Shown here piece by piece: positions 2,038 through 20,762 of a stretch of DNA of 20,828 bases. The position numbers and the translations under genes were made by a program. Below the pieces are notes generated by a model. It made no database searches, was not told the origin of the DNA, and saw only the letters and a program-made list of their open reading frames with translations. Location of the stretch: the IMG/VR virus record IMGVR_UViG_3300022591_000661, positions 1 through 20,828 of that record; one strand, given 5' to 3'. The stretch's first letter is position 1; each line of letters begins with the position of its first letter. Origin of the DNA: a virus.

Positions 2038-3468
2038 ATGTTTACACCCACCATTGGCGCACCGGAATACGCCCCCGGATTCGATCAACACGGCGCAATG
2101 CCACGCGGCGGAGGCGGAATGGATTTCGTCGCTACGCTGCCGGAATGGAGCGCGGAATCGATCTCCCCTCACGTGCAAGGCTATCAGCGCGCGGCACAGC
2201 AGGCGACGGCGCAACACACCCGCCGCGTCCTTGAGGCTGGCCGGCTGCTCAACGACGTCATCAGCGGACGCCTCGACCCGGTCTTCTGGCGCGAGGCGAT
2301 GAACCCCAGCAACGTCGTGCTGGTCGAGCATCTGCGGCAGACTTACCCGCGCGTGTACTCGCGTGACGGCCGCATGTTGGGACTGCGCGAAACAATGGCG
2401 CAGACCGACTACCAGGCGCTATTTGCCGACGTGCTCGACCGCGCGTACTACGGCAATTGGGCTGCGTGGCCGATCACGAACTCGCCGCTGCTCAAAGAGG
2501 CCAACCTGCGCGACTTCCGCCAAGTGAAGCGCTACATGTACGACGGTCTCGTGACCCCGTACACCGGCAGCGACCCGGGCGCACCGCCGACTCAACAGGC
2601 GATGTTGGGACCCGCCCCGCAGAATGGCGCGATCCCGCCGACCGCCGCAACCTCCACCGCCGCTGTCACGTACGCGCCGCTGCTCTACCAGGCATCCGCG
2701 TCGATCAACTGGGCGGCTCTCGTGGGCGACGATCTGGGCATCTTCCAGAGCGTGCCCCGCCGGCTGGCGATGAAGGGCAACCGCGGTATCGCCAAATTCC
2801 AGACCGGGCAGTACTGCGACGCCAACGGCCCGAACACAACCACGCCGAGCGCGAATCCGCTATTCCAGAGCGGCTACCACAATCAGTTGACCATCGCGAA
2901 TGGTGCCAGCGCGAACAACCCGCGCCTGACCATCAATTCGCTGGTGGATGCCTACACGATCCTGGCTGGCCAACTCGATTCGACCGGCGACCCGATCATG
3001 CTGGCTGGCCCGATGTACCTCGTGTACGGCGCCAGCGATTACGGCATCGCGAAGAACCTGGCCAACATGCTCGACGTGCTCACCCAGCAGCAGGGCGGCG
3101 TCGGCGGCGTGTCGACCAGTGCCACGGTCGGTCAGTTGATCCGCGTCCGAAACTGGGCGATGGAAAATCTCACGCTCATCTACGACCCGTATCTGTCGCT
3201 CGTCGCGACAAACAATCCGCATAGCTGGTTTCTCGTGGCCGACCCGAACATGCAGGAACGTCCCGGCATCGAGATCGGATTCCTCAGCGGCTTCAAGGAG
3301 CCCCAGCTTTTCACCGAGGTTCCGACCACGCAGCGCATGGGCGGCGGCCCGGATGCCACGATGGGCAACTTCTGGACGAGCAACCAGAACATCAAGATCA
3401 TGGGCGTCATGGGCGCCAGCCCGATGGACGGGCGCTCGTGGGTAGGCAGCAACGGAAGCGGCTCGTAA
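2038..3468 (+). CDS. Major capsid protein (HK97-fold type expected)
   Basis: 476 residues, the first large gene after protease and decoration protein, with a strong SD (AAGGAG at 2027-2032, 5 nt from ATG) overlapping the previous stop, fitting very high expression. The N-terminal ~50 residues are Gly/Pro-rich, then an Ala/Arg/Gln-rich helical stretch (HVQGYQRAAQQATAQHTRR), compatible with a delta-like assembly domain. The middle and C-terminal parts (SASINWAALVGDDLGIFQSV, IMLAGPMYLVYG, MENLTLIYDPYL, a final ASPMDGRSWVG) have the strand/helix pattern of HK97-fold capsid proteins, longer than the ~385 aa of HK97 gp5. I see no diagnostic motif; the call rests on position, size and SD strength. 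A terminator-like hairpin follows directly. Confidence 0.78.
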   Translation: MFTPTIGAPEYAPGFDQHGAMPRGGGGMDFVATLPEWSAESISPHVQGYQRAAQQATAQHTRRVLEAGRLLNDVISGRLDPVFWREAMNPSNVVLVEHLRQTYPRVYSRDGRMLGLRETMAQTDYQALFADVLDRAYYGNWAAWPITNSPLLKEANLRDFRQVKRYMYDGLVTPYTGSDPGAPPTQQAMLGPAPQNGAIPPTAATSTAAVTYAPLLYQASASINWAALVGDDLGIFQSVPRRLAMKGNRGIAKFQTGQYCDANGPNTTTPSANPLFQSGYHNQLTIANGASANNPRLTINSLVDAYTILAGQLDSTGDPIMLAGPMYLVYGASDYGIAKNLANMLDVLTQQQGGVGGVSTSATVGQLIRVRNWAMENLTLIYDPYLSLVATNNPHSWFLVADPNMQERPGIEIGFLSGFKEPQLFTEVPTTQRMGGGPDATMGNFWTSNQNIKIMGVMGASPMDGRSWVGSNGSGS

Positions 3469-3489
3469 GCTCTACTGGAGAGGCACGGA

Positions 3490-3568
3490 CCCGGCGCACC
3501 GGGCATAGGGATACGACGACAAAAAGCCGTCGCGCAACTCAGGGGAGGCGGCGCGGCGGCTTTCGTTT
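3490..3568 (+). terminator. Tandem hairpins after the capsid gene (intrinsic terminator/attenuator candidate)
   Basis: A 5-bp hairpin CCCGG-CGCA-CCGGG (3490-3503) is followed by a 13-bp stem, AAAGCCGTCGCGC (3523-3535) with GCGCGGCGGCTTT (3551-3563), containing one G-U wobble and a 15-nt loop. The 3' arm ends TTT and continues CGTTTT (to 3568), a modest U tract. It lies in the only sizeable gap of the head operon, where partial termination would lower expression of connector genes relative to the capsid protein. Strength is uncertain because the U tract is interrupted. Confidence 0.6.
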
Positions 3569-3578
3569 TGAGAGCGCA

Positions 3579-4031
3579 ATGGGATTCAGCTACATTCCGG
3601 GTACGCCAATCTTCTACTGCCGGCTGCTCATACCGGACACGCAGTCCCCTGGCATTTTCTCCGACGACGAGATCAACGGATTCCTTCAGATCAACCAGAT
3701 GACGTGGCAGTCGTCGATGTTCTACTCGGGCCCTGGCGGGGCGGTCAATCTCCCCCAGACTCCGAGCAACTTCCTCCGCGCGGCAGCGCTCGCGCTCAAC
3801 ACGCTGGCCGGCAACTCGTCGCGGTTGGCGGGCGTGACGCAACTGCTCGACGTCAAACTCAATCCGGCTGCGGCTGCGAAGGCATTGCAGGACACCGCAC
3901 AGCGCTACCTCGACATGGACGACAACTCAGGCGCGTTCGCGATCGCCGAGCAGGTAACGACTGTCTGGGCCTTCCGCGACCGCTGGCTTGCGCAACTTCA
4001 GCGGCAAACGGGTGGAGGATTTTTTTCTTGA
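3579..4031 (+). CDS. Head-tail connector protein (gp6-like adaptor)
   Basis: 150 residues from the ATG at 3579 (MGFSYIPGTPIFYC). The pattern FSDDEINGFLQI, then LRAAALALNTLAG and ALQDTAQRYLDMDD, is that of HK97 gp6-like connectors: a short acidic helix followed by Ala-rich helices. The frame is open further upstream, to 3438 inside the capsid gene, but that part is Arg-rich, overlaps the capsid gene and the terminator hairpin, and is unlikely to be translated. The SD before 3579 is weak (GAGAG), consistent with low copy number. The stop overlaps the next gene's TTG start (TTGA, 4028-4031). Confidence 0.66.
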   Translation: MGFSYIPGTPIFYCRLLIPDTQSPGIFSDDEINGFLQINQMTWQSSMFYSGPGGAVNLPQTPSNFLRAAALALNTLAGNSSRLAGVTQLLDVKLNPAAAAKALQDTAQRYLDMDDNSGAFAIAEQVTTVWAFRDRWLAQLQRQTGGGFFS

Positions 4032-4387
4032 ATATCAGCACTGGATTGGCGCTGGCAGGACTTGCTATATCCCTCATCACGTCGATAATTGCTGTGACCG
4101 CTGTGATAGTTCAGATGAAAACTAACGTGCAACGGCTCAATGATCGCGAGAAAACCCAGGACGCGCGGGAAGATGCTGCGGCCAAAGAAGTAGCCGAGTT
4201 TATTGGCGTTCTCAAGGCCTTCATGGCGGAGCAGACCGTCATCAATAAGACCGTTTCTGCGGCTCTCGATGGAGTAGTGCGTAAGCTGGAGGACGTCCAG
4301 AAGACGACAGTAGAAAGCTCCACAATCGTTAGTCTGCTCACGGAAGTTTTAAAGAAGAAAGCTCCTGGAGGATTGATCGAAGGATGA
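4028..4387 (+). CDS. Small membrane-anchored coiled-coil protein, TTG start
   Basis: 119 residues read from TTG at 4028, overlapping the previous stop in TTGA, with a strong SD (GGAGG 4014-4018, 9 nt away). Residues ~4-30 are one hydrophobic segment (TGLALAGLAISLITSIIAV); the rest is charged and helical with heptad-like spacing (NVQRLNDREKTQDAREDAAA...LEDVQKTTVE), a coiled coil. No family recognised. Position between connector and tail completion genes is unusual for a membrane protein. The DNA is visibly richer in A/T than its neighbours, which could mean later acquisition. It ends in an ATGA overlap with the RlpA-like gene, so the two are probably translated together. It could be a holin-like or spanin-like lysis protein, an ejected virion protein, or an exclusion protein; I cannot choose. 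Confidence 0.7.
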   Translation: MNISTGLALAGLAISLITSIIAVTAVIVQMKTNVQRLNDREKTQDAREDAAAKEVAEFIGVLKAFMAEQTVINKTVSAALDGVVRKLEDVQKTTVESSTIVSLLTEVLKKKAPGGLIEG

Positions 4388-4740
4388 TCACCGTAAAGGC
4401 CACGCGCGAAGGACTCATCGGGCACCAGACTGCCAGCGGTTACTATGTCGACACGGTCGTCTCTTTCGTCGCGTTGCCATCCGAGAATGCCCTGTTCCGA
4501 TTCGTGCGCGTGATCAACACCGTCAACGACCACGAGTGCATCGCTCAGGTGCTCGACGTTGGCCCCTGGAATATCGACGACGACGCCTATGTCTTCGGCG
4601 GGTCCCGGCCCCAGGCTGAGAGTGGCATCGACAAGCAGGGCCGCAAGACCAACGGCGCTGGCATCGACCTCGGTGAGAAGGTGTGGACGAAACTCGGAAT
4701 GCAAGACAATAGCGCGGTGATGTGGGAGTTCGTGTCGTGA
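4384..4740 (+). CDS. RlpA-like double-psi beta-barrel protein
   Basis: 118 residues. The pattern follows the RlpA/expansin-type double-psi beta-barrel: TASGYYVDT (17-24), VALPS (29-33, where RlpA has a His-containing xxLPxG turn), VRVINTVNDHE, then VLDVGPW (56-62; RlpA: VxDRGP, with the conserved Asp) and NGAGIDLGEKVWTKLGM (90-106; RlpA: IDLSxAAAxxLG) and a final strand VMWEFV. In this superfamily are lytic transglycosylases (RlpA, MltA) and cell-wall binding proteins. Asp58 is retained but the His usual before LPxG is absent, so catalysis is not assured. Overlaps the membrane coiled-coil gene by ATGA and the next gene by GTGA. Plausible roles: virion-associated wall-degrading activity or a structural barrel recruited as head closure. 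Confidence 0.62.
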   Translation: MITVKATREGLIGHQTASGYYVDTVVSFVALPSENALFRFVRVINTVNDHECIAQVLDVGPWNIDDDAYVFGGSRPQAESGIDKQGRKTNGAGIDLGEKVWTKLGMQDNSAVMWEFVS

Positions 4741-5177
4741 ATCAGGCCGCAATCACTCTCGCGATCCAAGGTGTGATGGCTGAGGCCGTTGCGACGGGCC
4801 TGTTTGTGTCGCTGTTTACCGCTCTGCAGCCGGTGCCTACGCAAGGTCCGAACGGTGCCATCGAATTCGATTACGTCGATGTCGCCGGCCTCAGCAACCT
4901 GGTCTGCATGGCATCGCAGCAGTCGCCGGACTCCATACAGGCGACCGAAGTACGCGCGCTCGAAGAGATCACTGCCAGCGAATTGCACTTGGCATTGATC
5001 CCGCAGTATTTGCCCCAGTTGGACGCCGGATGGCGTGGCGAGGCACCGGACGGCAAAGGCGCATGGATTTGCCAGATTCGCTGGCAGGGGGCCTGGTACA
5101 CGTACGAGATCCAAGGCGTCGGCAACGACTCGCAGAGCCAAGGCACGTGGGTCAAGGTCAAATTGGCTACCGTATGA
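4737..5177 (+). CDS. Head closure / tail completion-like protein
   Basis: 146 residues from GTG at 4737, in GTGA overlap with the previous stop and with GGGAG (4724-4728) 8 nt upstream; a GTG at 4722 in the same frame would lie inside that SD and is less likely. Begins with a helix (AAITLAIQGVMAEAVATGLF), then mixed alpha/beta with a late WYTYEIQGVG strand region and a positively charged end (WVKVKLATV). No family motif recognised; assignment to the neck (minor tail or head closure) comes from its place between the connector and the tail terminator-like gene. ATGA overlap with the next gene. Confidence 0.5.
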   Translation: MNQAAITLAIQGVMAEAVATGLFVSLFTALQPVPTQGPNGAIEFDYVDVAGLSNLVCMASQQSPDSIQATEVRALEEITASELHLALIPQYLPQLDAGWRGEAPDGKGAWICQIRWQGAWYTYEIQGVGNDSQSQGTWVKVKLATV

Positions 5178-5632
5178 GCACTCCGCTACAAGTCAAGATG
5201 TTCAAGCTGGCGGGCGCGGACTCGACCTTGCAGGGCTATCTGCTGGGTGCGAACAACACGCTCCGCTGGTTCCCGGTGCAGCTTGAGAAGGGCTACATTT
5301 ACCAGGGTGCGTGCGTGGTGGTGCGCCAGATCAGCAGCGTCGTGGATTACGTACAGAACGGGCCGCTGTGTCTTGAGGGAGTGCAGATGCAGGTTGAGTG
5401 CCGCTCACTTGACTCCCTGCAAGCGCAGGCACTCGCTCGATATCTGTTCGTCAGCTTCTTTCCAAACTCGAATTTCACGGTGGATAACCAGTTTCAATCT
5501 CCGCCGATTCCGGCGCCGCCCGCGCCGAACTTCAGGCTTTCGCAACGCTCAAGCCTCGATTATGAGGTGCAACCTAAACCGGCGTGGGTGGAGATCCTCA
5601 CCTACCGCCTCTGGAACAATGTAAACACTTAA
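5174..5632 (+). CDS. Tail terminator-like protein
   Basis: 152 residues from the ATG at 5174, overlapping the previous stop by ATGA. The central stretch MQVECRSLDSLQAQALARYL is typical of tail terminator/completion proteins (lambda gpU or DUF3168 type): a beta strand followed by a helix placing the subunit ring on the tail tube. The Pro-rich linker QSPPIPAPPAPNFR and a C-terminal strand pair (WVEILTYRLWN) follow. It sits immediately before the tail tube gene, the normal order. Family assignment is by pattern and position. Confidence 0.58.
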   Translation: MSTPLQVKMFKLAGADSTLQGYLLGANNTLRWFPVQLEKGYIYQGACVVVRQISSVVDYVQNGPLCLEGVQMQVECRSLDSLQAQALARYLFVSFFPNSNFTVDNQFQSPPIPAPPAPNFRLSQRSSLDYEVQPKPAWVEILTYRLWNNVNT

Positions 5633-5643
5633 GGAGAAACACA

Positions 5644-6099
5644 ATGTCCGCTTTGGCTTTACCGGCAATCGCAAGTTACAATACTCAGCTTTACCTCGGT
5701 GGCCCCACCAGCCCGCCGAGTTATGTACTGCAAGCCCGCATCGGAAACGTGAAGTTCGCGGGCATGACCATCGACATGGTCGACGTGAGCAACCAGACGA
5801 GCACGGCGCACCGCATGCTCGGCACGCTGCTCAAGCCCGGCGATGTGACATTCGACTTGTTTGTCGAGCCCGCATCGGCACAGGATCAGACTCTCATCGA
5901 TCTGATTATCACCGCACCGCCCGCACTCCAGCAGTGGAAGATCGTCACCGCGGCCGGCACGGACGGCACCGCGTTTGTGTTCAACGGCTATCTGAGCAAG
6001 TTCCCGCTCGATGCGTCCATCGGCAAGGCGCTGACTGTGGCTTGCTCGATCTCGATCGACAACAACGTCACCGTCGTCTACGGCGTGGGTCCGCTTTAA
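5644..6099 (+). CDS. Major tail tube protein
   Basis: 151 residues with strong SD (AAGGAG 5631-5636, 7 nt), fitting abundant expression. Sequence is beta-rich with the order expected of siphovirus tube proteins: ARIGNVKFAGMTIDMVDVSN, then HRMLGTLLKPGDVTFDLFVE (the loop-strand 'flip and tube' segment), a helix around DQTLIDLIITAP, and final strands TAFVFNGYLSKFPLD and TVACSISIDN. Preceded by the terminator and followed by the chaperone pair, the canonical tail order. Absence of a sheath gene beside it argues for a non-contractile tail. Confidence 0.8.
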   Translation: MSALALPAIASYNTQLYLGGPTSPPSYVLQARIGNVKFAGMTIDMVDVSNQTSTAHRMLGTLLKPGDVTFDLFVEPASAQDQTLIDLIITAPPALQQWKIVTAAGTDGTAFVFNGYLSKFPLDASIGKALTVACSISIDNNVTVVYGVGPL

Positions 6100-6113
6100 T
6101 CGAGGGCTGAGTT

Positions 6114-6509
6114 ATGACGCCAATCGAATACCCTACTATCACTGTCGGCGCACACGAGAATCTCGTCGTGCGCCTTTCGCTTGCGTCTCAACTGCTCCTG
6201 CGGCGCCGCGGCATGGATCCGGCGCGCATGGGAGAACTCATGCAGCCACGGATCGGCAACGAGCCCAATCCCGACGCGGTCGGCAACGTAATCGCCGTGT
6301 TCGCCTGCATGGTCGCGGAGAACTTCGTCGATCGCTCCAAGCCCCATCTGTGCGACCTCAGTAGCGCTCCGACAGCCGACTACTGGGCCATGCAGATTGA
6401 CGACTTCGCCGCCATCGAGCGCGTCGTATGGGCCGCCGTGGGAAAAGCAGTGGAGGAGCGGCGGAAGAAGCTGGCGGTGGTTCCTCCGGCGTCGGAAGTA
6501 GCCAGCTAA
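6114..6509 (+). CDS. Tail assembly chaperone, short (G-like) product
   Basis: 131 residues, SD GAGGG (6102-6106). Helical protein between tube and tape measure, the position of lambda gpG. N-terminal strands (YPTITVGAHENLVVRLSL) are followed by helices and an Arg/Lys-rich end. The last ~20 codons overlap a second open frame in -1 phase that begins being usable at a GGGAAAA slippery site (separate entry). This zero-frame product binds the tape measure during tail assembly in the families where it is known and is absent from the finished virion. Confidence 0.78.
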   Translation: MTPIEYPTITVGAHENLVVRLSLASQLLLRRRGMDPARMGELMQPRIGNEPNPDAVGNVIAVFACMVAENFVDRSKPHLCDLSSAPTADYWAMQIDDFAAIERVVWAAVGKAVEERRKKLAVVPPASEVAS

Positions 6510-15247: not shown

Positions 15248-15255
15248 TTAATATA

Positions 15256-15284
15256 GGGCGGCGGGGCAACTCGCCGCCCTTAAC
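15256..15284 (+). terminator. GC-rich hairpin after the Ig-like gene
   Basis: GGGCGGCG (15256-15263) pairs perfectly with CGCCGCCC (15272-15279) around an 8-nt loop, and GTTAA/TTAAC on either side (15248-15252 and 15280-15284) extend the symmetry. Only two U follow the stem, so it may be a weak terminator, an RNA-stability element or both. The next gene's SD starts right after it. Confidence 0.45.
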
Positions 15285-15295
15285 CAGGAGACTCC

Positions 15296-16072
15296 ATGGC
15301 AGAATTCAGACTCGGTCGCAATCGTCCTCCAGTAGGCAAGCGCAAGATGCACTTCCGGGACTACCGCACGGGGGTGCCGCTGCCTGTGCCTCCGGCGACA
15401 TGCTCCTATGCGCCAAAAGCGGCTGGAGCGCTCAAGCAAATGTACCTCAACGACGAGTTGGGGGATTGCGTGATCGCCGGTATCGCGCACCTGCAAGGCG
15501 TGTTCACGGGCAATGCGGGCGCGGCCCCGGAGCAATTCACGCGCGACCAGATCATCGCCCTGTACAGCGCCATCGGCGGATATATCCCCGGCCACGATGA
15601 CACCGACAACGGATGCGACGAGCGCTCTGCGTTGTCGTACTGGCAGACCAATGGCGCTCCGTTCGGGCAAAATCAAATCAGCGGCTGGCTGTCGGTCGAC
15701 GGAACCAATTCTCACCAGGTGCGGCAAGCACTCTACCTCTTCGAGAATTTGGTATTCGGCATCGAGCTCCCGGACAAATGGATCAATCCGGCGCCGTCCG
15801 CTCCTGGCTTCGTGTGGGATGTGGCCGGACCAGCGGATCCGGACAACGGGCATTGCTTCGTCGGCGTCGGATACGATCAGACTGGAGTGCAGATCTCCAC
15901 CTGGGGGATGCTCGGGAAAATGACCGACCAGGCAATCGCGGCCTATGCGTCGGCATCGGGATCGGGCGAATTGTACGTCGTGCTCACCCCCGCGATCATC
16001 GCCAAGGCAACGCAAAAGTCTCCGGCCGGGTTCGAGTTTGCGCAGCTAGCGGCGGATTTCGAGAACTTCTAA
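15296..16072 (+). CDS. Papain-like cysteine peptidase-type protein
   Basis: 258 residues, SD AGGAG (15286-15290). Layout matches a papain-like fold: LNDELGDCVIAGIAH with Cys58 at the start of a helix (papain CGSCW position), and DNGHCFVGVGYD with His186 followed 15 residues later by STWG (201-204), where papain has NSWG. Thus the Cys-His pair is kept while the Asn position reads Ser201. A DNGCDE segment (104-109) and TNGAPFG lie between. No signal peptide or membrane segment. I have seen similar LGDCxxAA...H...VGYD...TWG proteins in phage and bacterial genomes without an assigned role. Next to lipoprotein and unknown genes after the tail module, it could serve lysis, virion entry or host takeover. 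Peptidase activity is not proven by sequence. Confidence 0.62.
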   Translation: MAEFRLGRNRPPVGKRKMHFRDYRTGVPLPVPPATCSYAPKAAGALKQMYLNDELGDCVIAGIAHLQGVFTGNAGAAPEQFTRDQIIALYSAIGGYIPGHDDTDNGCDERSALSYWQTNGAPFGQNQISGWLSVDGTNSHQVRQALYLFENLVFGIELPDKWINPAPSAPGFVWDVAGPADPDNGHCFVGVGYDQTGVQISTWGMLGKMTDQAIAAYASASGSGELYVVLTPAIIAKATQKSPAGFEFAQLAADFENF

Positions 16073-16934: not shown

Positions 16935-17035
16935 AGGGCAGAGTCTTTTCCGCAGCCCCATTGACGGACTGTTAGGATTCCAATGTGGCATCCGCCGCAT
17001 AGTACTCAGTTAACTTCAGATAGCACATTTTTATC

Positions 17036-17064
17036 TTGCGCCGAATCCAGTAAGGGTACATACT
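17036..17064 (+). promoter_or_regulatory. Promoter candidate for the recombination module
   Basis: TTGCGC (17036-17041; matches TTG of -35), 17 nt spacing, CATACT (17059-17064; four of six -10 bases). The surrounding GTACATA...CT..GGTTT resembles the promoter candidate at 16752-16784. Start near 17071 would leave a ~28 nt leader with an AGGAG SD. Hexamers are weak, so a phage-specific activator or other sigma factor may be used. Confidence 0.35.
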
Positions 17065-17098
17065 GGTTTTGTCAGCCACCAACTGATAGGAGAAAAAA

Positions 17099-17314
17099 AT
17101 GAACTACGTATTCCAACAGCCTAACGGCACACCGTACCCACACAACGATGAGGATTCATCGCCCATGCTCCTGGAATCAAGGGTGCACGCCAAGAGGGTC
17201 ATCGCATGGCTTGGGTTGACCGATGTGAAAATTGTGAAGGCCAGCGATGGACAATTGGCCTGCGGGCATCTGGTGATGGTACATAGCCGCGAGTACCGCA
17301 AAAGACTCCGCTGA
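17099..17314 (+). CDS. Small hypothetical early protein
   Basis: 71 residues with a clear SD (TAGGAG 17087-17092, A-rich spacer), first gene of the recombination module. Begins MNYVFQQPNGTPYPHNDEDS, middle ESRVHAKRVIAWLGLTDVKI, and a basic tail HSREYRKRLR. No family recognised. Small basic protein at the head of an early operon; host takeover or anti-defence roles are possible but unsupported. Confidence 0.68.
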   Translation: MNYVFQQPNGTPYPHNDEDSSPMLLESRVHAKRVIAWLGLTDVKIVKASDGQLACGHLVMVHSREYRKRLR

Positions 17315-17392
17315 GTTGCCTCGGCGCTCAGCCCTCCGTGACCAGCGGAGCGCGGCGGGTGGTACCGCCCGCTGGGGTGCGCAAGCCCCGGC
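17315..17392 (+). promoter_or_regulatory. Structured leader with competing pairings upstream of the Lar-like gene
   Basis: Between the two genes CTCCG/CGGAG (about 17335-17350), GCGGGTG/CGCCCGC (17355-17361 with 17366-17372, loop GTAC) and the repeat hairpin can all form. In addition CCAGCGG (17342-17348) is fully complementary to CCGCTGG (17369-17375), which would break the repeat hairpin. No U tract, so not a plain terminator. Confidence 0.45.
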
Positions 17393-17406
17393 AACAAATA
17401 AAGGAG
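17369..17406 (+). repeat. 38-nt direct repeat, copy 1: hairpin plus SD before the Lar-like gene
   Basis: Identical over 38 nt to 17715-17752. Inside it GCTGGGG (17371-17377) pairs with CCCCGGC (17386-17392), 7 bp with one G-U, loop TGCGCAAG; then AACAAATAAAGGAG, where AAGGAGG is a near-perfect SD 8-9 nt before the ATG at 17416. The copy is the ribosome-loading leader of the gene. Confidence 0.92.
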
Positions 17407-17415
17407 GTCAAGTAG

Positions 17416-17652
17416 ATGGGCGTATACCGTAGCATCCGTGGCATCCGGCAGTGCGTTTTCTGTGGATCTACCGACGAAGATCAGACCAATTACGACATGG
17501 ACAAGCCGCCAATCTGCGGATCGTGCAATACCCACGGTCCTTTCGGTGCTGGCTGGCCAGCCGCCGAATCCGGCGATCTGAAGGGCGTCAGCCCCCGCTA
17601 CAGAAAATCGGTCGCTGAAAAACTCGGCATCCGAGTCTCCACCAGTCGCTAA
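17416..17652 (+). CDS. Lar-like zinc-ribbon protein
   Basis: 78 residues with an excellent SD from repeat copy 1. Two Cys pairs, CVFC (13-16) and CGSC (34-37), with CxFCGSTDED...ICGSCNTHGPFG, match the short zinc ribbon of the restriction alleviation (Lar) family: CPFCGSxD...xCxxCGxxGP. Lar of Rac prophage and related phage proteins modulate type I restriction-modification in favour of the incoming DNA. The C-terminal half (PRYRKSVAEKLGIRV) is basic. Function in anti-restriction is by family resemblance; many Lar-like proteins are uncharacterised zinc ribbons. Confidence 0.58.
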   Translation: MGVYRSIRGIRQCVFCGSTDEDQTNYDMDKPPICGSCNTHGPFGAGWPAAESGDLKGVSPRYRKSVAEKLGIRVSTSR

Positions 17653-17714
17653 GTAATGTCCAACATTCTCGCCCTGGACGGCTATAACGTCCTCGATACC
17701 AAAGACAACGAGCA

Positions 17715-17752
17715 CCGCTGGGGTGCGCAAGCCCCGGCAACAAATAAAGGAG
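17715..17752 (+). repeat. 38-nt direct repeat, copy 2: hairpin plus SD before the small zinc-motif gene
   Basis: Exact copy of 17369-17406, 346 nt downstream. Hairpin arms 17717-17723 and 17732-17738; AAAGGAG lies 5 nt before the ATG at 17758. Sequence on both sides differs from copy 1, so the identity stops sharply at the SD end and at the base of the hairpin. Confidence 0.92.
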
Positions 17753-17757
17753 AAATT

Positions 17758-18054
17758 ATGCTATCTACGACGTACTGTGGGATCTACGATAATGCTCCCA
17801 TGATTCGCGCGCACATCGAGGCGTGCGAGGCATTCGACGCCAACCACGATCCATACTATCGGCTGGAGTTAGGCGGCGTATTGTACACGCTGACCGACGA
17901 GCATCTCCGCCATATCCTCGACGTCCTCAGCAGCGCTCTGCCGCTGCCGAAGTCGGAGCCGGAGTGCGAGTGCCATGACCTGGCGGGGGACGTGGCCGAC
18001 GCCAGCGGGTGCGCGCTGCACGGCCGGCGAGGAGGGTCCGATGCCCAATTCTGA
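17758..18054 (+). CDS. Small protein with C-terminal CxC...CxxH motif
   Basis: 98 residues from ATG 17758, chosen because the repeat-borne SD AAAGGAG precedes it; the frame is open to an ATG at 17656 right after the previous stop, but that start has no SD and would translate the repeat. Helical N-terminal part (APMIRAHIEACEAFDANHD, LTDEHLRHILDVLSSAL) and an end ECECHDLAGDVADASGCALH that could hold a metal (Cys-x-Cys-His and Cys-x2-His). No family recognised. Overlaps the ERF gene by 14 nt, so it is probably translationally linked to recombination. Confidence 0.68.
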   Translation: MLSTTYCGIYDNAPMIRAHIEACEAFDANHDPYYRLELGGVLYTLTDEHLRHILDVLSSALPLPKSEPECECHDLAGDVADASGCALHGRRGGSDAQF

Positions 18055-18844
18055 CCTGCTGCGTGTGACAAATGAGAGTCAGTTGGTGAGCCGAGACGCG
18101 ATGAGCGTGCAGCGCCAGCCGACGCCCATGGAGATGATCGCCGCCATTGCCCGCGACCCGTCCATCCCGGTCGACCGCATCGCGGCCCTGATCGGGCTCC
18201 AGGAGCGCATGGAGGCTCGCGAGGCCGAGAAGGCATACAATCAGGACTTCGCCGCGGCCATGCTGGAAATGCCCAAAGTGGCCAAGCGCGGCAAGAAGGA
18301 CATGACCAAGCGCGGGGACCCGGCTGGCAGCGGTGGCGTGATTCCGTACGAGACATACGAGGACCTTGACGCGGCGATCCGGCCGATTGAGACGCGCTAT
18401 GGGTTTGCGCGGTCTTTCTCCACGCGCCTCAGCGACAAGGGATCTGGCGTAATCCTGGTACTCACTCTGACGCACCGCGCCGGCCACAGCACGACGTCAG
18501 AGCGCTACTGTGCGCCAGATGAGGGACCGGGCCGCAATGCAATACAGGCCCTGGGAAGCGGCGAAAGCTATGGACGCCGCTACCTCACGAAGTCCAAGTG
18601 GAATATTGTGACCGTGGGCGCCGACGACGACGGCGACACCGCGGACCCAATCAGCGAGCAGCAGGCCATGGACCTGCACGACATGCTCGACGCGCTGGCG
18701 ATGACTCCGACACAGGCCGAGCGCTTCTGGGCATGGGTCGGGCCGCCCGCGGTCAACGTGGCGACCATCCAGCGCAAGGACTTCGAGCGGGTCGCGGCGT
18801 GGCTCAGGCAGCGGGTGAAGCAGAGAGAGGGAGGTGGACGGTGA
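18041..18844 (+). CDS. ERF family single-strand DNA annealing protein
   Basis: 267 residues from ATG 18041, SD AGGAGGG (18030-18036). ERF (P22 Erf type) proteins anneal complementary single strands during phage recombination and genome circularisation. Seen here: basic region PKVAKRGKKDMTKR, the strand-loop VIPYETYEDLDAAIRPIETR, and the hallmark ALGSGESYGRRYLTKSKWNI (~170-190) followed by acidic ADDDGD. C-terminal ~75 residues (DLHDMLDALAMTPTQAERFW...FERVAAWLRQRV) form the usual extra helical domain. Overlaps the next gene by GTGA. Paired downstream with a YqaJ exonuclease, forming a complete exonuclease/annealing pair. Confidence 0.88.
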   Translation: MPNSDLLRVTNESQLVSRDAMSVQRQPTPMEMIAAIARDPSIPVDRIAALIGLQERMEAREAEKAYNQDFAAAMLEMPKVAKRGKKDMTKRGDPAGSGGVIPYETYEDLDAAIRPIETRYGFARSFSTRLSDKGSGVILVLTLTHRAGHSTTSERYCAPDEGPGRNAIQALGSGESYGRRYLTKSKWNIVTVGADDDGDTADPISEQQAMDLHDMLDALAMTPTQAERFWAWVGPPAVNVATIQRKDFERVAAWLRQRVKQREGGGR

Positions 18845-19998
18845 AGACGGAATCGGTTGAACTGATGGTGGTTAATGCGCAGAACGCCGTGCAGATATTC
18901 ACTGGCGGCGGTCTCGCGGGCTTGCTCGATGGTATCGAGCAGCAAGTCCGGGCGATCAAACTAGACCCTTCCACGCCCGGCGGGCGTGAGGAGATTCGAT
19001 CTGTCGCTTATAAGATCTCGAGGACTAAGACTGCTCTGGATGCCGAGGGAAAGAAACTCACGGAGGAATGGCGTCAGGCCACCGCCAGAGTGAACGCTGA
19101 GCGCAAGAAAAGTGCCGAGCGGCTGGAAGCGCTGCAAGAGGAGGTGCGCAAGCCGCTCACCGATTTCGAGGGAAAGGAGCAACGCCGCGTTAGGGCGCAC
19201 GAAGATTCGCTTGGCCTCATTACCGGCATGCGCGAGATGCTCGCCGCTCACCCGGATATGTCGCTCGCTCTACTACTAGATCACCAACGGGACGTCGAGG
19301 CATTGCTTCCGGGGTATGTGTGGGAGGAATTCAAGTCCCGCGCGGAATTTGCGCGCGCCGATCTGGCTAAGTATCTAACTGACCGGATCGAATCACGCAA
19401 GAAATACGAGGAAGAGCAGGTGGAACTAGCCAGACTACGCAAGGCGGAAGCGGAAAGACTCCAGCGGGAGCGAGATGAAAGGCTGAAGGCTGAAGCCGCC
19501 GAAAACGCACGACTGCAAGCGGAGCGGAAAGCGAAAGCCGATGCCGACGCCGAAGCAAAGCGAGTGATCGAGGCGGCAGAGAAAGAGCGGTTGCGGGTGG
19601 CCAAGGAAGCAGAGCGCGTCCGGCTGGAAAACGAGCGCGCACAGAAGGCAATCGAAGACGCGCGGTGCAGGGAAGAGCAGGCTAAACTCGCGGCGGAACA
19701 GCGAGCCAAGGACGCCGAAGAGGCGCGCACGAGAGCAGAGGCACGGGCCGCCGCCGAACTCAAGGCCGCGCAGGAAAAGGCCGCGCGAGACGCCGAAGTG
19801 GCGGTGGCGCACGAACGAGCGAGGCAAGAGCGAGAGCGGAAGGAAGAGGAGGTAGCTCGCGCGAAGCGAGAGACAAATCAAAGATTGCGCGCCAAGATCC
19901 GCAGCGATATCGTCGCCGATCTGATAGAGAAATCCGCCGAAGAAATCGCGGATGCGCTACTGGCTGGGCACGTGCGCCATGTGCAGGTGGTGTTCTGA
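18841..19998 (+). CDS. Long coiled-coil protein of the ERF/YqaJ recombination module
   Basis: 385 residues from GTG 18841 (GTGA overlap; SD GGAGG 18830-18834, 6 nt). N-terminal ~125 residues are conserved-looking (GGLAGLLDGIEQQVRAIKLD, REEIRSVAYKISRTKTALDA, EEVRKPLTDFEGKE), a pattern I know from phage proteins located beside recombination genes. Residues ~185-350 are an uninterrupted, charged coiled coil rich in E, K, R, A (ERLQRERDERLKAEAAENAR). The end LIEKSAEEIADALLAGHVRH is a small separate helix pair. It may bridge ERF and the exonuclease, load them on ends, or act as a structural SMC-like arm; no ATPase motif is present. Its stop shares one base with the exonuclease start (TGATG). Function unknown. 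Confidence 0.78.
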   Translation: MKTESVELMVVNAQNAVQIFTGGGLAGLLDGIEQQVRAIKLDPSTPGGREEIRSVAYKISRTKTALDAEGKKLTEEWRQATARVNAERKKSAERLEALQEEVRKPLTDFEGKEQRRVRAHEDSLGLITGMREMLAAHPDMSLALLLDHQRDVEALLPGYVWEEFKSRAEFARADLAKYLTDRIESRKKYEEEQVELARLRKAEAERLQRERDERLKAEAAENARLQAERKAKADADAEAKRVIEAAEKERLRVAKEAERVRLENERAQKAIEDARCREEQAKLAAEQRAKDAEEARTRAEARAAAELKAAQEKAARDAEVAVAHERARQERERKEEEVARAKRETNQRLRAKIRSDIVADLIEKSAEEIADALLAGHVRHVQVVF

Positions 19999-20762
19999 TG
20001 CCTAACTACCGCTATGATCTAATTCAGGGTTCGGACGCCTGGCTCGAAGCGAGGCTCGGTATCCCGACCGCCTCCGAGTTCGACCGCATCATCACGCCAG
20101 CCAAACTGCAGTTGGCTTCGGCGGCGACGAAGTACATGCACCTTAAGCTGGCCGAGTGGATGTACGGCGCCCCGCTGGAGGCGTTCGTATCGCCGTGGAT
20201 GGAGCGCGGCCAGGCGCTGGAGGCTGAGGCCGTGCGCTACTACGAGATGGAGCGCGACGTCGAGACCACCAAGGTCGGCCTAGTGCTCACCGACGACGGC
20301 ATGATCGGAGCCAGCCCTGACCGACTAGTAACTGACCCGCTTGACTCGACTCCAGGGCTGCTTGAGCAAAAGTGCCCTGCGCTCGAAACGCACGTCGGCT
20401 ACATGCTCGATCCGGCCTCCCTGATCGCTGAGTACCGCCTGCAAGTCCAGGGGCAACTGTGGGTCTGCGAGCGCGAGTGGTGCGATATGCAGAGCTACTA
20501 TCCGGGGTTCCCTTCGGTCATTGCCCGCGTTTACCGCGAAGAAAAGGTACAGGCCGCGCTGAAGCAGCACATCCCGGCCTTCGTCGTCACGATGCTGGAG
20601 TGCCGCGCCAAGCTCACCCAGATGTACGGCGAACTCCGGCGGGAGCGGGTCGGCGCGGCGAAGGCGGCAGAGATCCTGGAGGCCCGCCGCGCGGCGCACG
20701 ACGAGTGGATGGATTCGCCGGTCGGAGGTGTGTGGTGTGAAGACGGTATATTTCGATTTTGA
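19998..20762 (+). CDS. YqaJ-type viral exonuclease (lambda Exo-like fold)
   Basis: 254 residues. N-terminus LIQGSDAWLEARLGIPTASE (9-27) is the YqaJ signature QGSxxWxxxRxGxxTAS. Then GQALEAEAVRYYEM, active-site Asp108 in GASPDRL and Glu123-x-Lys125 in LLEQKCP (PD-(D/E)XK), and QVQGQLWVCEREW. All nuclease residues are intact. The enzyme resects double-strand ends 5' to 3', giving single strands for the ERF protein to anneal. C-terminal ~70 residues are helical (AALKQHIPAFVVTMLECRAK). Overlaps the next gene by 26 nt. Confidence 0.9.
   Translation: MPNYRYDLIQGSDAWLEARLGIPTASEFDRIITPAKLQLASAATKYMHLKLAEWMYGAPLEAFVSPWMERGQALEAEAVRYYEMERDVETTKVGLVLTDDGMIGASPDRLVTDPLDSTPGLLEQKCPALETHVGYMLDPASLIAEYRLQVQGQLWVCEREWCDMQSYYPGFPSVIARVYREEKVQAALKQHIPAFVVTMLECRAKLTQMYGELRRERVGAAKAAEILEARRAAHDEWMDSPVGGVWCEDGIFRF

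Follow-up and report, generated by a model that had tools for sequence, protein, structure and literature searches.

Why should the same short sequence, letter for letter, precede the start codons of two small phage genes whose products (starts at 17416 and 17758) have no family in common? The locus that raises this question lies in a tailed-phage record of 20,828 bases (IMG/VR record IMGVR_UViG_3300022591_000661), the whole stretch of DNA that was analysed and which is referred to here as the window. The sequence forms an exact direct repeat of 38 nt at 17369-17406 and 17715-17752 on the plus strand (346 nt start to start). The repeat is maximal, in that the bases before and after it differ between the copies, and the chance expectation for such a pair in 20.8 kb is ~1.8e-14. 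Both copies comprise a GC-rich hairpin, an A-rich spacer and AAAGGAG, with an ATG downstream; the hairpin has 8 bp and the loop GCGCAA (predicted -16.3 kcal/mol) and is followed by AACAAATAAAGGAG, and the gap between GGAG and ATG measures 9 nt at copy 1 and 5 nt at copy 2. Copy 2 also lies inside an open frame (ORF 17656-18054), in frame with the start at 17758. An earlier note on this DNA had pointed out the identical 38 nt before two unrelated small genes, and this was borne out, also in L003, a contig of the phage's own population that is 100% identical to the window over the shared 3,496 nt. Since L003 was binned independently and has the same two-copy arrangement, the repeat is not an assembly artefact of one contig. 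A third copy with three or fewer mismatches was not found within the window, and exact and degenerate scans of IMG/VR with the 38-mer matched only the phage's own population.

The answer that we arrived at, and to which we assign a probability of about 70%, is that a cis-acting RNA module ends one cistron and starts the next and, being conserved, doubles as homology for gene exchange. The element would initiate the downstream cistron and would probably stabilise or process the mRNA at the cistron border. Through its conserved sequence it could also serve as homology for the exchange of genes between or behind such borders.

The phage and its relatives

Family searches of the window's proteins identified head maturation protease, capsid, tail, tape-measure, ERF and YqaJ genes. 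The features described between 17036 and 20762 lie on the plus strand. The ERF-type ssDNA annealing protein is encoded at 18041-18844 (phrog_155 E 6e-28, Pfam ERF E 4e-6) and the YqaJ-type recombination exonuclease at 19998-20762 (Pfam YqaJ E 9e-22). Upstream of ERF, three small genes are found: one of 71 aa with no confident family (17099-17314), whose stop codon lies in the first hairpin of the element described below; a zinc-ribbon-like gene of 78 aa (17416-17652), whose sole relative found (52%, in L014) stands upstream of an element; and, directly 5' of ERF, a conserved gene (17758-18054) with 44-49% identity to its counterparts in L015, L068 and L070. The relatives of the capsid protein (2038-3468) among GenBank phages are only two Methanoculleus viruses, at 24% identity.

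Related phages were gathered via ERF, most of them at 54-79% identity, and the set was widened via YqaJ; L028, L045, L050 and L055, which are phages with a type A leader (see below), were reached otherwise than through ERF. Searches with blastn of the region and of the element against GenBank phages gave no matches. In the search for a prophage or host, no ERF relatives were found in GTDB contigs. The top YqaJ relative was located in a Chloroflexi MAG (49%) that is without the element; a scan of 201 genomes of the Chloroflexi phylum with model R2 (see below) recovered no element, and the distant YqaJ relatives (35-47%) are without the leaders. A few kb beyond YqaJ, both the continuation of the window and relatives contain tandem repeats of ~21 nt, perhaps iterons (L073 5241-5276, L076 12423-12508, L078 3382-3422 and L080 4933-4999; e.g. 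CGGGAGAAAATCCCA... and GGCGGAATCTGCC...).

The three-hairpin element and the 5' leader

In the relatives of the window the sequence of the 38-mer is gone, but structure and position are kept, with hairpins and then a Shine-Dalgarno (SD) sequence at the same place, and the proposal of a hairpin-SD start module was supported in that form. The comparison with relatives, which the earlier note had named as a test, did not refute its reading. The 38-mer had been taken as the unit; copy 1 is instead the last hairpin plus SD, and thereby the 3' end, of a three-hairpin intercistronic RNA element of ~110 nt, of which copy 2 is a truncated duplicate. The full copy in the window (17306-17418) ends in SD and ATG and is documented by covariation (alignments A3/A7) and by R1 and R2 matches. 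It is built from P1, a long imperfect stem (CUCCGCUGA...CAGCGGAG, 17306-17350), P2 (GGCGG-GUGGUA-CCGCC, 17354-17369) and P3 (17371-17392, loop GCGCAA); copy 1 corresponds to P3, the A-rich spacer and AAAGGAG, and copy 2 to P3 and SD only, the region 17692-17760 giving a weak R1 match (E 5e-4) and no R2 match at E<=0.5.

The carriers are soil phages, and homologues of the element were found in ten besides that of the window. Within this group the element separates the first two genes of the early operon. It holds the stop codon of the first gene or starts directly after it, and in most members it runs to the SD of the second; its layout in the relatives is P1, P2 (loop GUGGUA or a variant), P3 (loop U-R-S-G-Y-A-A, common to phages that otherwise differ), spacer, SD and start. 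In a sequence-only alignment of six phages, 95% of the cells in 20 P1-P3 pairs were paired, and 15 double-change cells were counted versus 5.0 after shuffling and at most 3 in slid structures; 27 pairs were predicted for these phages, 12 of them with compensatory double changes. The alignment of eleven phages, which was fitted to the model and leans to structure, was, together with copy 2, paired in 94.6% of the cells, with 47 double-change cells versus 13.6 (0/500 shuffles) and double changes in 17 of the 27 pairs. Within the eleven-phage alignment such changes affect 6/13 pairs of P1, 5/5 of P2 and 4/6 of P3, all of this evidence being drawn from few lineages.

The covariance model R1, trained on six phages, found matches outside its training set in L177 (E 1e-21), L178 (2.5e-16), L050 (1.7e-8), L045 (1.4e-7) and L014 (3e-4), and R2 added a weak member in L028 (20.9 bits, E 0.03 over 1 Mb), while a model search of 0.97 Mb of other sequence gave nothing below E 0.085. 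L071, L007, L017 and L072 have the 5' leader, and no element was detected in them in the R1/R2 searches. Neither the window nor the relatives contained an Rfam 15 family above the gathering threshold. Compensatory changes in several helices and a fixed genomic position, as looked for in a structured cis-regulatory RNA, were both observed, and the element is a candidate for a new, previously undescribed RNA family. The suspicion in the earlier note that selection acts on the leader can be specified as selection on RNA structure, with stems that covary and loops that are kept.

Translating the next gene cannot be the only role of the element, since in L177 a new promoter, and not the SD, comes directly after it, and in L028 a terminator-like U-run. 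Predicted SD accessibility is uneven (0.96 at copy 1, 0.21 at copy 2 and 0.11-0.12 in three relatives), and the idea that the hairpin keeps the SD open is unsupported, as this accessibility is not uniformly high. A possible H-type pseudoknot exists in L021 (66-183), where UUACGU, shortly downstream of P3, could pair over its full length with the P3 loop ACGUAA; as a general feature this pairing was dropped, being present in L021 only.

The first gene of the operon has a structure of its own at its start. In the window this is a type B leader (17070-17101; UGUCAG-CCACCAA-CUGAUA, AGGAG, ATG). Such leader hairpins abut the SD (stem, loop, stem, AGGAG, ATG) and have the loop AUCCA in type A and CCACCAA, CUACCAA or UACCA in type B. 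Their stems covary in the 19-member alignment A4, with 93.6% of the cells paired and 14 double-change cells versus 3.3 in shuffles and 4 in the best slid version. The 37 contigs with GATCGMATCCAKCGATC were mostly chance matches inside genes, and only those continuing with AGGAG and a start were kept. A sigma-70-like promoter for the early operon (TTGCGC-17-CATACT, 17036-17064) has its -10 box ending 6 nt before the leader hairpin. Its score of 7/12 is reached by 16% of random positions and is not significant alone; the promoter was called because the -10 box stands at a constant 6-7 nt from most such leaders across phages, and four leader sites match the sigma-70 consensus with a score of 9-10 of 12, which 0.9% of random positions reach. 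Given this distance of 6-7 nt, the leader hairpin is probably located at the 5' end of the mRNA.

Several related arrangements were observed in passing. The sequence GTTAACTTCAGATAGC, upstream of the early promoter (17008-17024), recurs in L177 and L017 and may be the site of a regulator or an activator. The genome of the window phage has a third hairpin-SD arrangement at 15255-15298, before the 258-aa gene at 15296; it consists of an 11-bp hairpin with a GCAA tetraloop (AGGGCGGCGGG-GCAA-CTCGCCGCCCT) and then AGGAG. In L066 (3300040758_000080, a 48-kb phage) a block of promoter and type A leader recurs before several early genes (2400-5100, reverse strand), with one change of the stem (TCCCGC/GCGGGA). 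Finally, L071 repeats a block CCGCTGAGCCTGTCTC..CTGCC.GACCAGCACAAGA.GGTCA between consecutive small genes (5454-6390), in which the type A leader is joined to another kind of intercistronic hairpin.

The 5' leader has a loop complementary to that of P2, and from phage to phage the two change together. The pair ACCA/UGGU is found in the window, L068, L070, L015, L067, L178 and L177, UCCA/UGGA in L050 and L028, and CAUCAC/GUGAUG in L014 (6/6 complementary), L045 being the only poor fit. When the eight distinct loop pairs were permuted, 24 of 40,320 orders reached the observed sum, a figure to be read in the light of only about three independent classes, which are related, and of an idea drawn from the same data. 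The complementarity suggests a kissing contact, for which it is a strong lead and not proof. We tentatively put forward that the 5'-terminal hairpin of the early mRNA and hairpin P2 behind the slot gene may form a kissing loop and so close the exchangeable cistron into an RNA loop, its two borders recognising each other by coevolving loops and the 38-mer acting as a restart module for the next gene.

Loops that are conserved while the stems covary could also be read by an RNA-binding regulator, of phage or host origin, that sets early-gene expression through translational operators or nut/boxB-like antitermination sites. The hairpins indeed occur at the 5' ends of early mRNAs and at cistron borders, where nut or operator sites would be, and the P3 loop is shared by phages whose other parts are different. 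However, no candidate regulator was identified, the sites of T4 RegA are unstructured (PMC3014915), and the joint change of the leader and P2 loops is explicable by loop-loop contact without a protein, an argument that does not extend to P3. Such a regulator is a possibility that we take seriously, at odds clearly short of even.

The gene slot and the second copy

A slot that holds a different gene in each of the phages compared is enclosed by two structured borders: the hairpin-SD leader, usually just after the -10 box, on the 5' side and the three-hairpin element on the 3' side. Unrelated genes replace the window's slot gene in eight other phages, no two of the nine slot products are related, and for nearly all of them no family was found. 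In L068, L178 and the window, the last two residues and the stop of the slot gene are specified by the 5' strand of P1, with the sequence CUC CGC UGA. A comparison of the nine phages that have both leader and element indicated that homology reaches the start codon of the first gene (-4 to +13), vanishes over the gene and returns at -6 to +0 of the element in most pairs, and in a few distant pairs only at +27 to +42, inside it. Most clearly, L015 and L067 are 96% identical over 309 nt up to codon 3, continue with unrelated genes, and regain an identity of 93% starting 1 nt ahead of the element. This pattern was also seen for the window paired with L068, L070 and L177, and for L068/L070, L068/L177, L177/L178 and L045/L050. 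In L015 the slot gene follows a type B leader and its 54% homologue in L007 one of type A, implying separate exchange of gene and leader type; a further gene, preceded by a type A leader in both phages, occupies the first place in L071 and the third in L007. The borders lend support to the view, voiced in the earlier note, of a homology block behind which small genes get exchanged. The neighbouring Erf and YqaJ genes form a lambda-Red-like recombination pair, and, judging from the known biology of such proteins, the phage's Erf annealase and YqaJ exonuclease plausibly carry out the exchange.

The origin of copy 2 can be approached in the same way. In L015, L068 and L070 the orthologue of the gene at 17758 sits directly behind the element, which makes the gene behind copy 2 and the 5' flank of copy 1 the ancestral neighbours, and the zinc-ribbon gene, together with one repeat unit, the insertion. 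Copy 2 fits insertion of this gene by recombination at the leader: it would have entered behind the element, leaving a truncated second copy, the 38-mer, before the old second gene. Leader-bounded insertions before the ERF-side genes were found not only in the window (38 nt) but also in L017 (21 nt), L067 (12 nt; TTCACAAGGAGA flanks the extra gene on both sides) and L071 (19 + 49 nt).

Another explanation would be that copy 2 is a mere scar of a recent insertion or tandem duplication with no function of its own. The copies are identical versus the strong divergence in relatives, copy 2 is without P1 and P2, and the insertions in L017 and L067 carry short direct repeats as well. Nevertheless, copy 2 retains the hairpin, the SD and a gap of 5 nt to the ATG of the conserved gene, and for this reason it most likely still starts translation at 17758; that it should be a scar and nothing else seems doubtful to us.

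An element that sits where gene cassettes meet, at a gene's 3' end, and that has sharp exchange junctions is also reminiscent of attC, and one could imagine a DNA-level element, either an attC-like recombination site with a dedicated recombinase driving the exchange or operator/promoter DNA. This is unlikely, considering that the attC core boxes RYYYAAC/GTTRRRY are paired in 0/11 elements, that the element is always sense to the operon and ends at an SD in most members, that changes preserving G-U pairs fit RNA, and that no integrase was found among the window proteins scanned, which covered part of the ORFs. A T-box-like tRNA sensor, suggested by the resemblance of GGGUGGUACCGC in P2 of the window to the T-box bulge UGGN (UGGU or UGGA being present in the P2 loop of most members), is highly improbable, as no Rfam T-box match was obtained for the window (E<=5) or the relatives (E<=1) and the reading is largely refuted by L014, whose P2 loop GUGAUG is unable to pair with CCA and pairs with its own leader loop.

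Known systems and implications

Bacterial mRNAs can carry 5'-terminal stabilising hairpins of the ompA type. The leader hairpins resemble these in lying beside the SD and, because they follow the -10 box by ~6-7 nt, probably at the 5' terminus of the mRNA; the conserved loop and its complement in P2 are not features of that model, and the 38-mer is internal. The promoter early stem-loops (PeSLs), reportedly described by Arbiol in 2010 and Comeau in 2014, are said to be composite promoter-terminator motifs of T4-like myoviruses. According to PMC4503421, the PeSLs of T4-type phages are short cassettes of regulatory sequence placed among the early genes, through which modules are shuffled, and in this the present module is alike. 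Compared by description, it differs in that the element is without a terminator in most members and ends at an SD; promoter-like boxes do precede the 5' leaders, but a U-run follows the element in L028 only, and only the promoter-leader blocks of L028 come near to a PeSL.

The earlier note had drawn a parallel with the start-associated sequences (SAS) of cluster K mycobacteriophages, a constant 13-bp sequence (GGGATAGGAGCCC) within a few nt of the start that occurs in 11-19 copies before non-structural genes, about half of them with an upstream inverted repeat, and whose function is unknown (Pope et al. 2011, PMC3203893). The layout is alike, a repeated SD-containing motif just before the start codons of non-structural genes, but here the sequence varies while the hairpin structure is kept, the copies are few and they are associated with a gene slot. 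With the 13-bp SAS, AACAAATAAAGGAG and the relatives' leaders have only AGGAG in common, and the extended form (ESAS) consists of imperfect 17-bp inverted repeats with little support for RNA hairpins (PMC3203893), whereas the stems described here are mostly 5-8 bp and covary. In T4, RegA acts as one early regulator on many initiation regions, at sites that overlap or adjoin the AUG and lack clear structure (PMC3014915), unlike the structured element. From these comparisons, the module would work like the cluster K SAS or the T4 PeSL cassettes; it is not a member of the former and probably not of the latter.

The proposed module would explain how tiny early genes can be exchanged without breaking expression, namely via structured, expression-ready borders at start and stop. 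It would also add a strongly covarying candidate RNA family, in phages for which no cultured relative was found here, and, should the kissing contact prove real, a novel type of RNA architecture that closes a cistron. Host takeover or counter-defence are likely tasks to look for in the slot genes, which encode nine unrelated small proteins and are good candidates for such roles, and the slot borders provide a handle for finding more of these genes.
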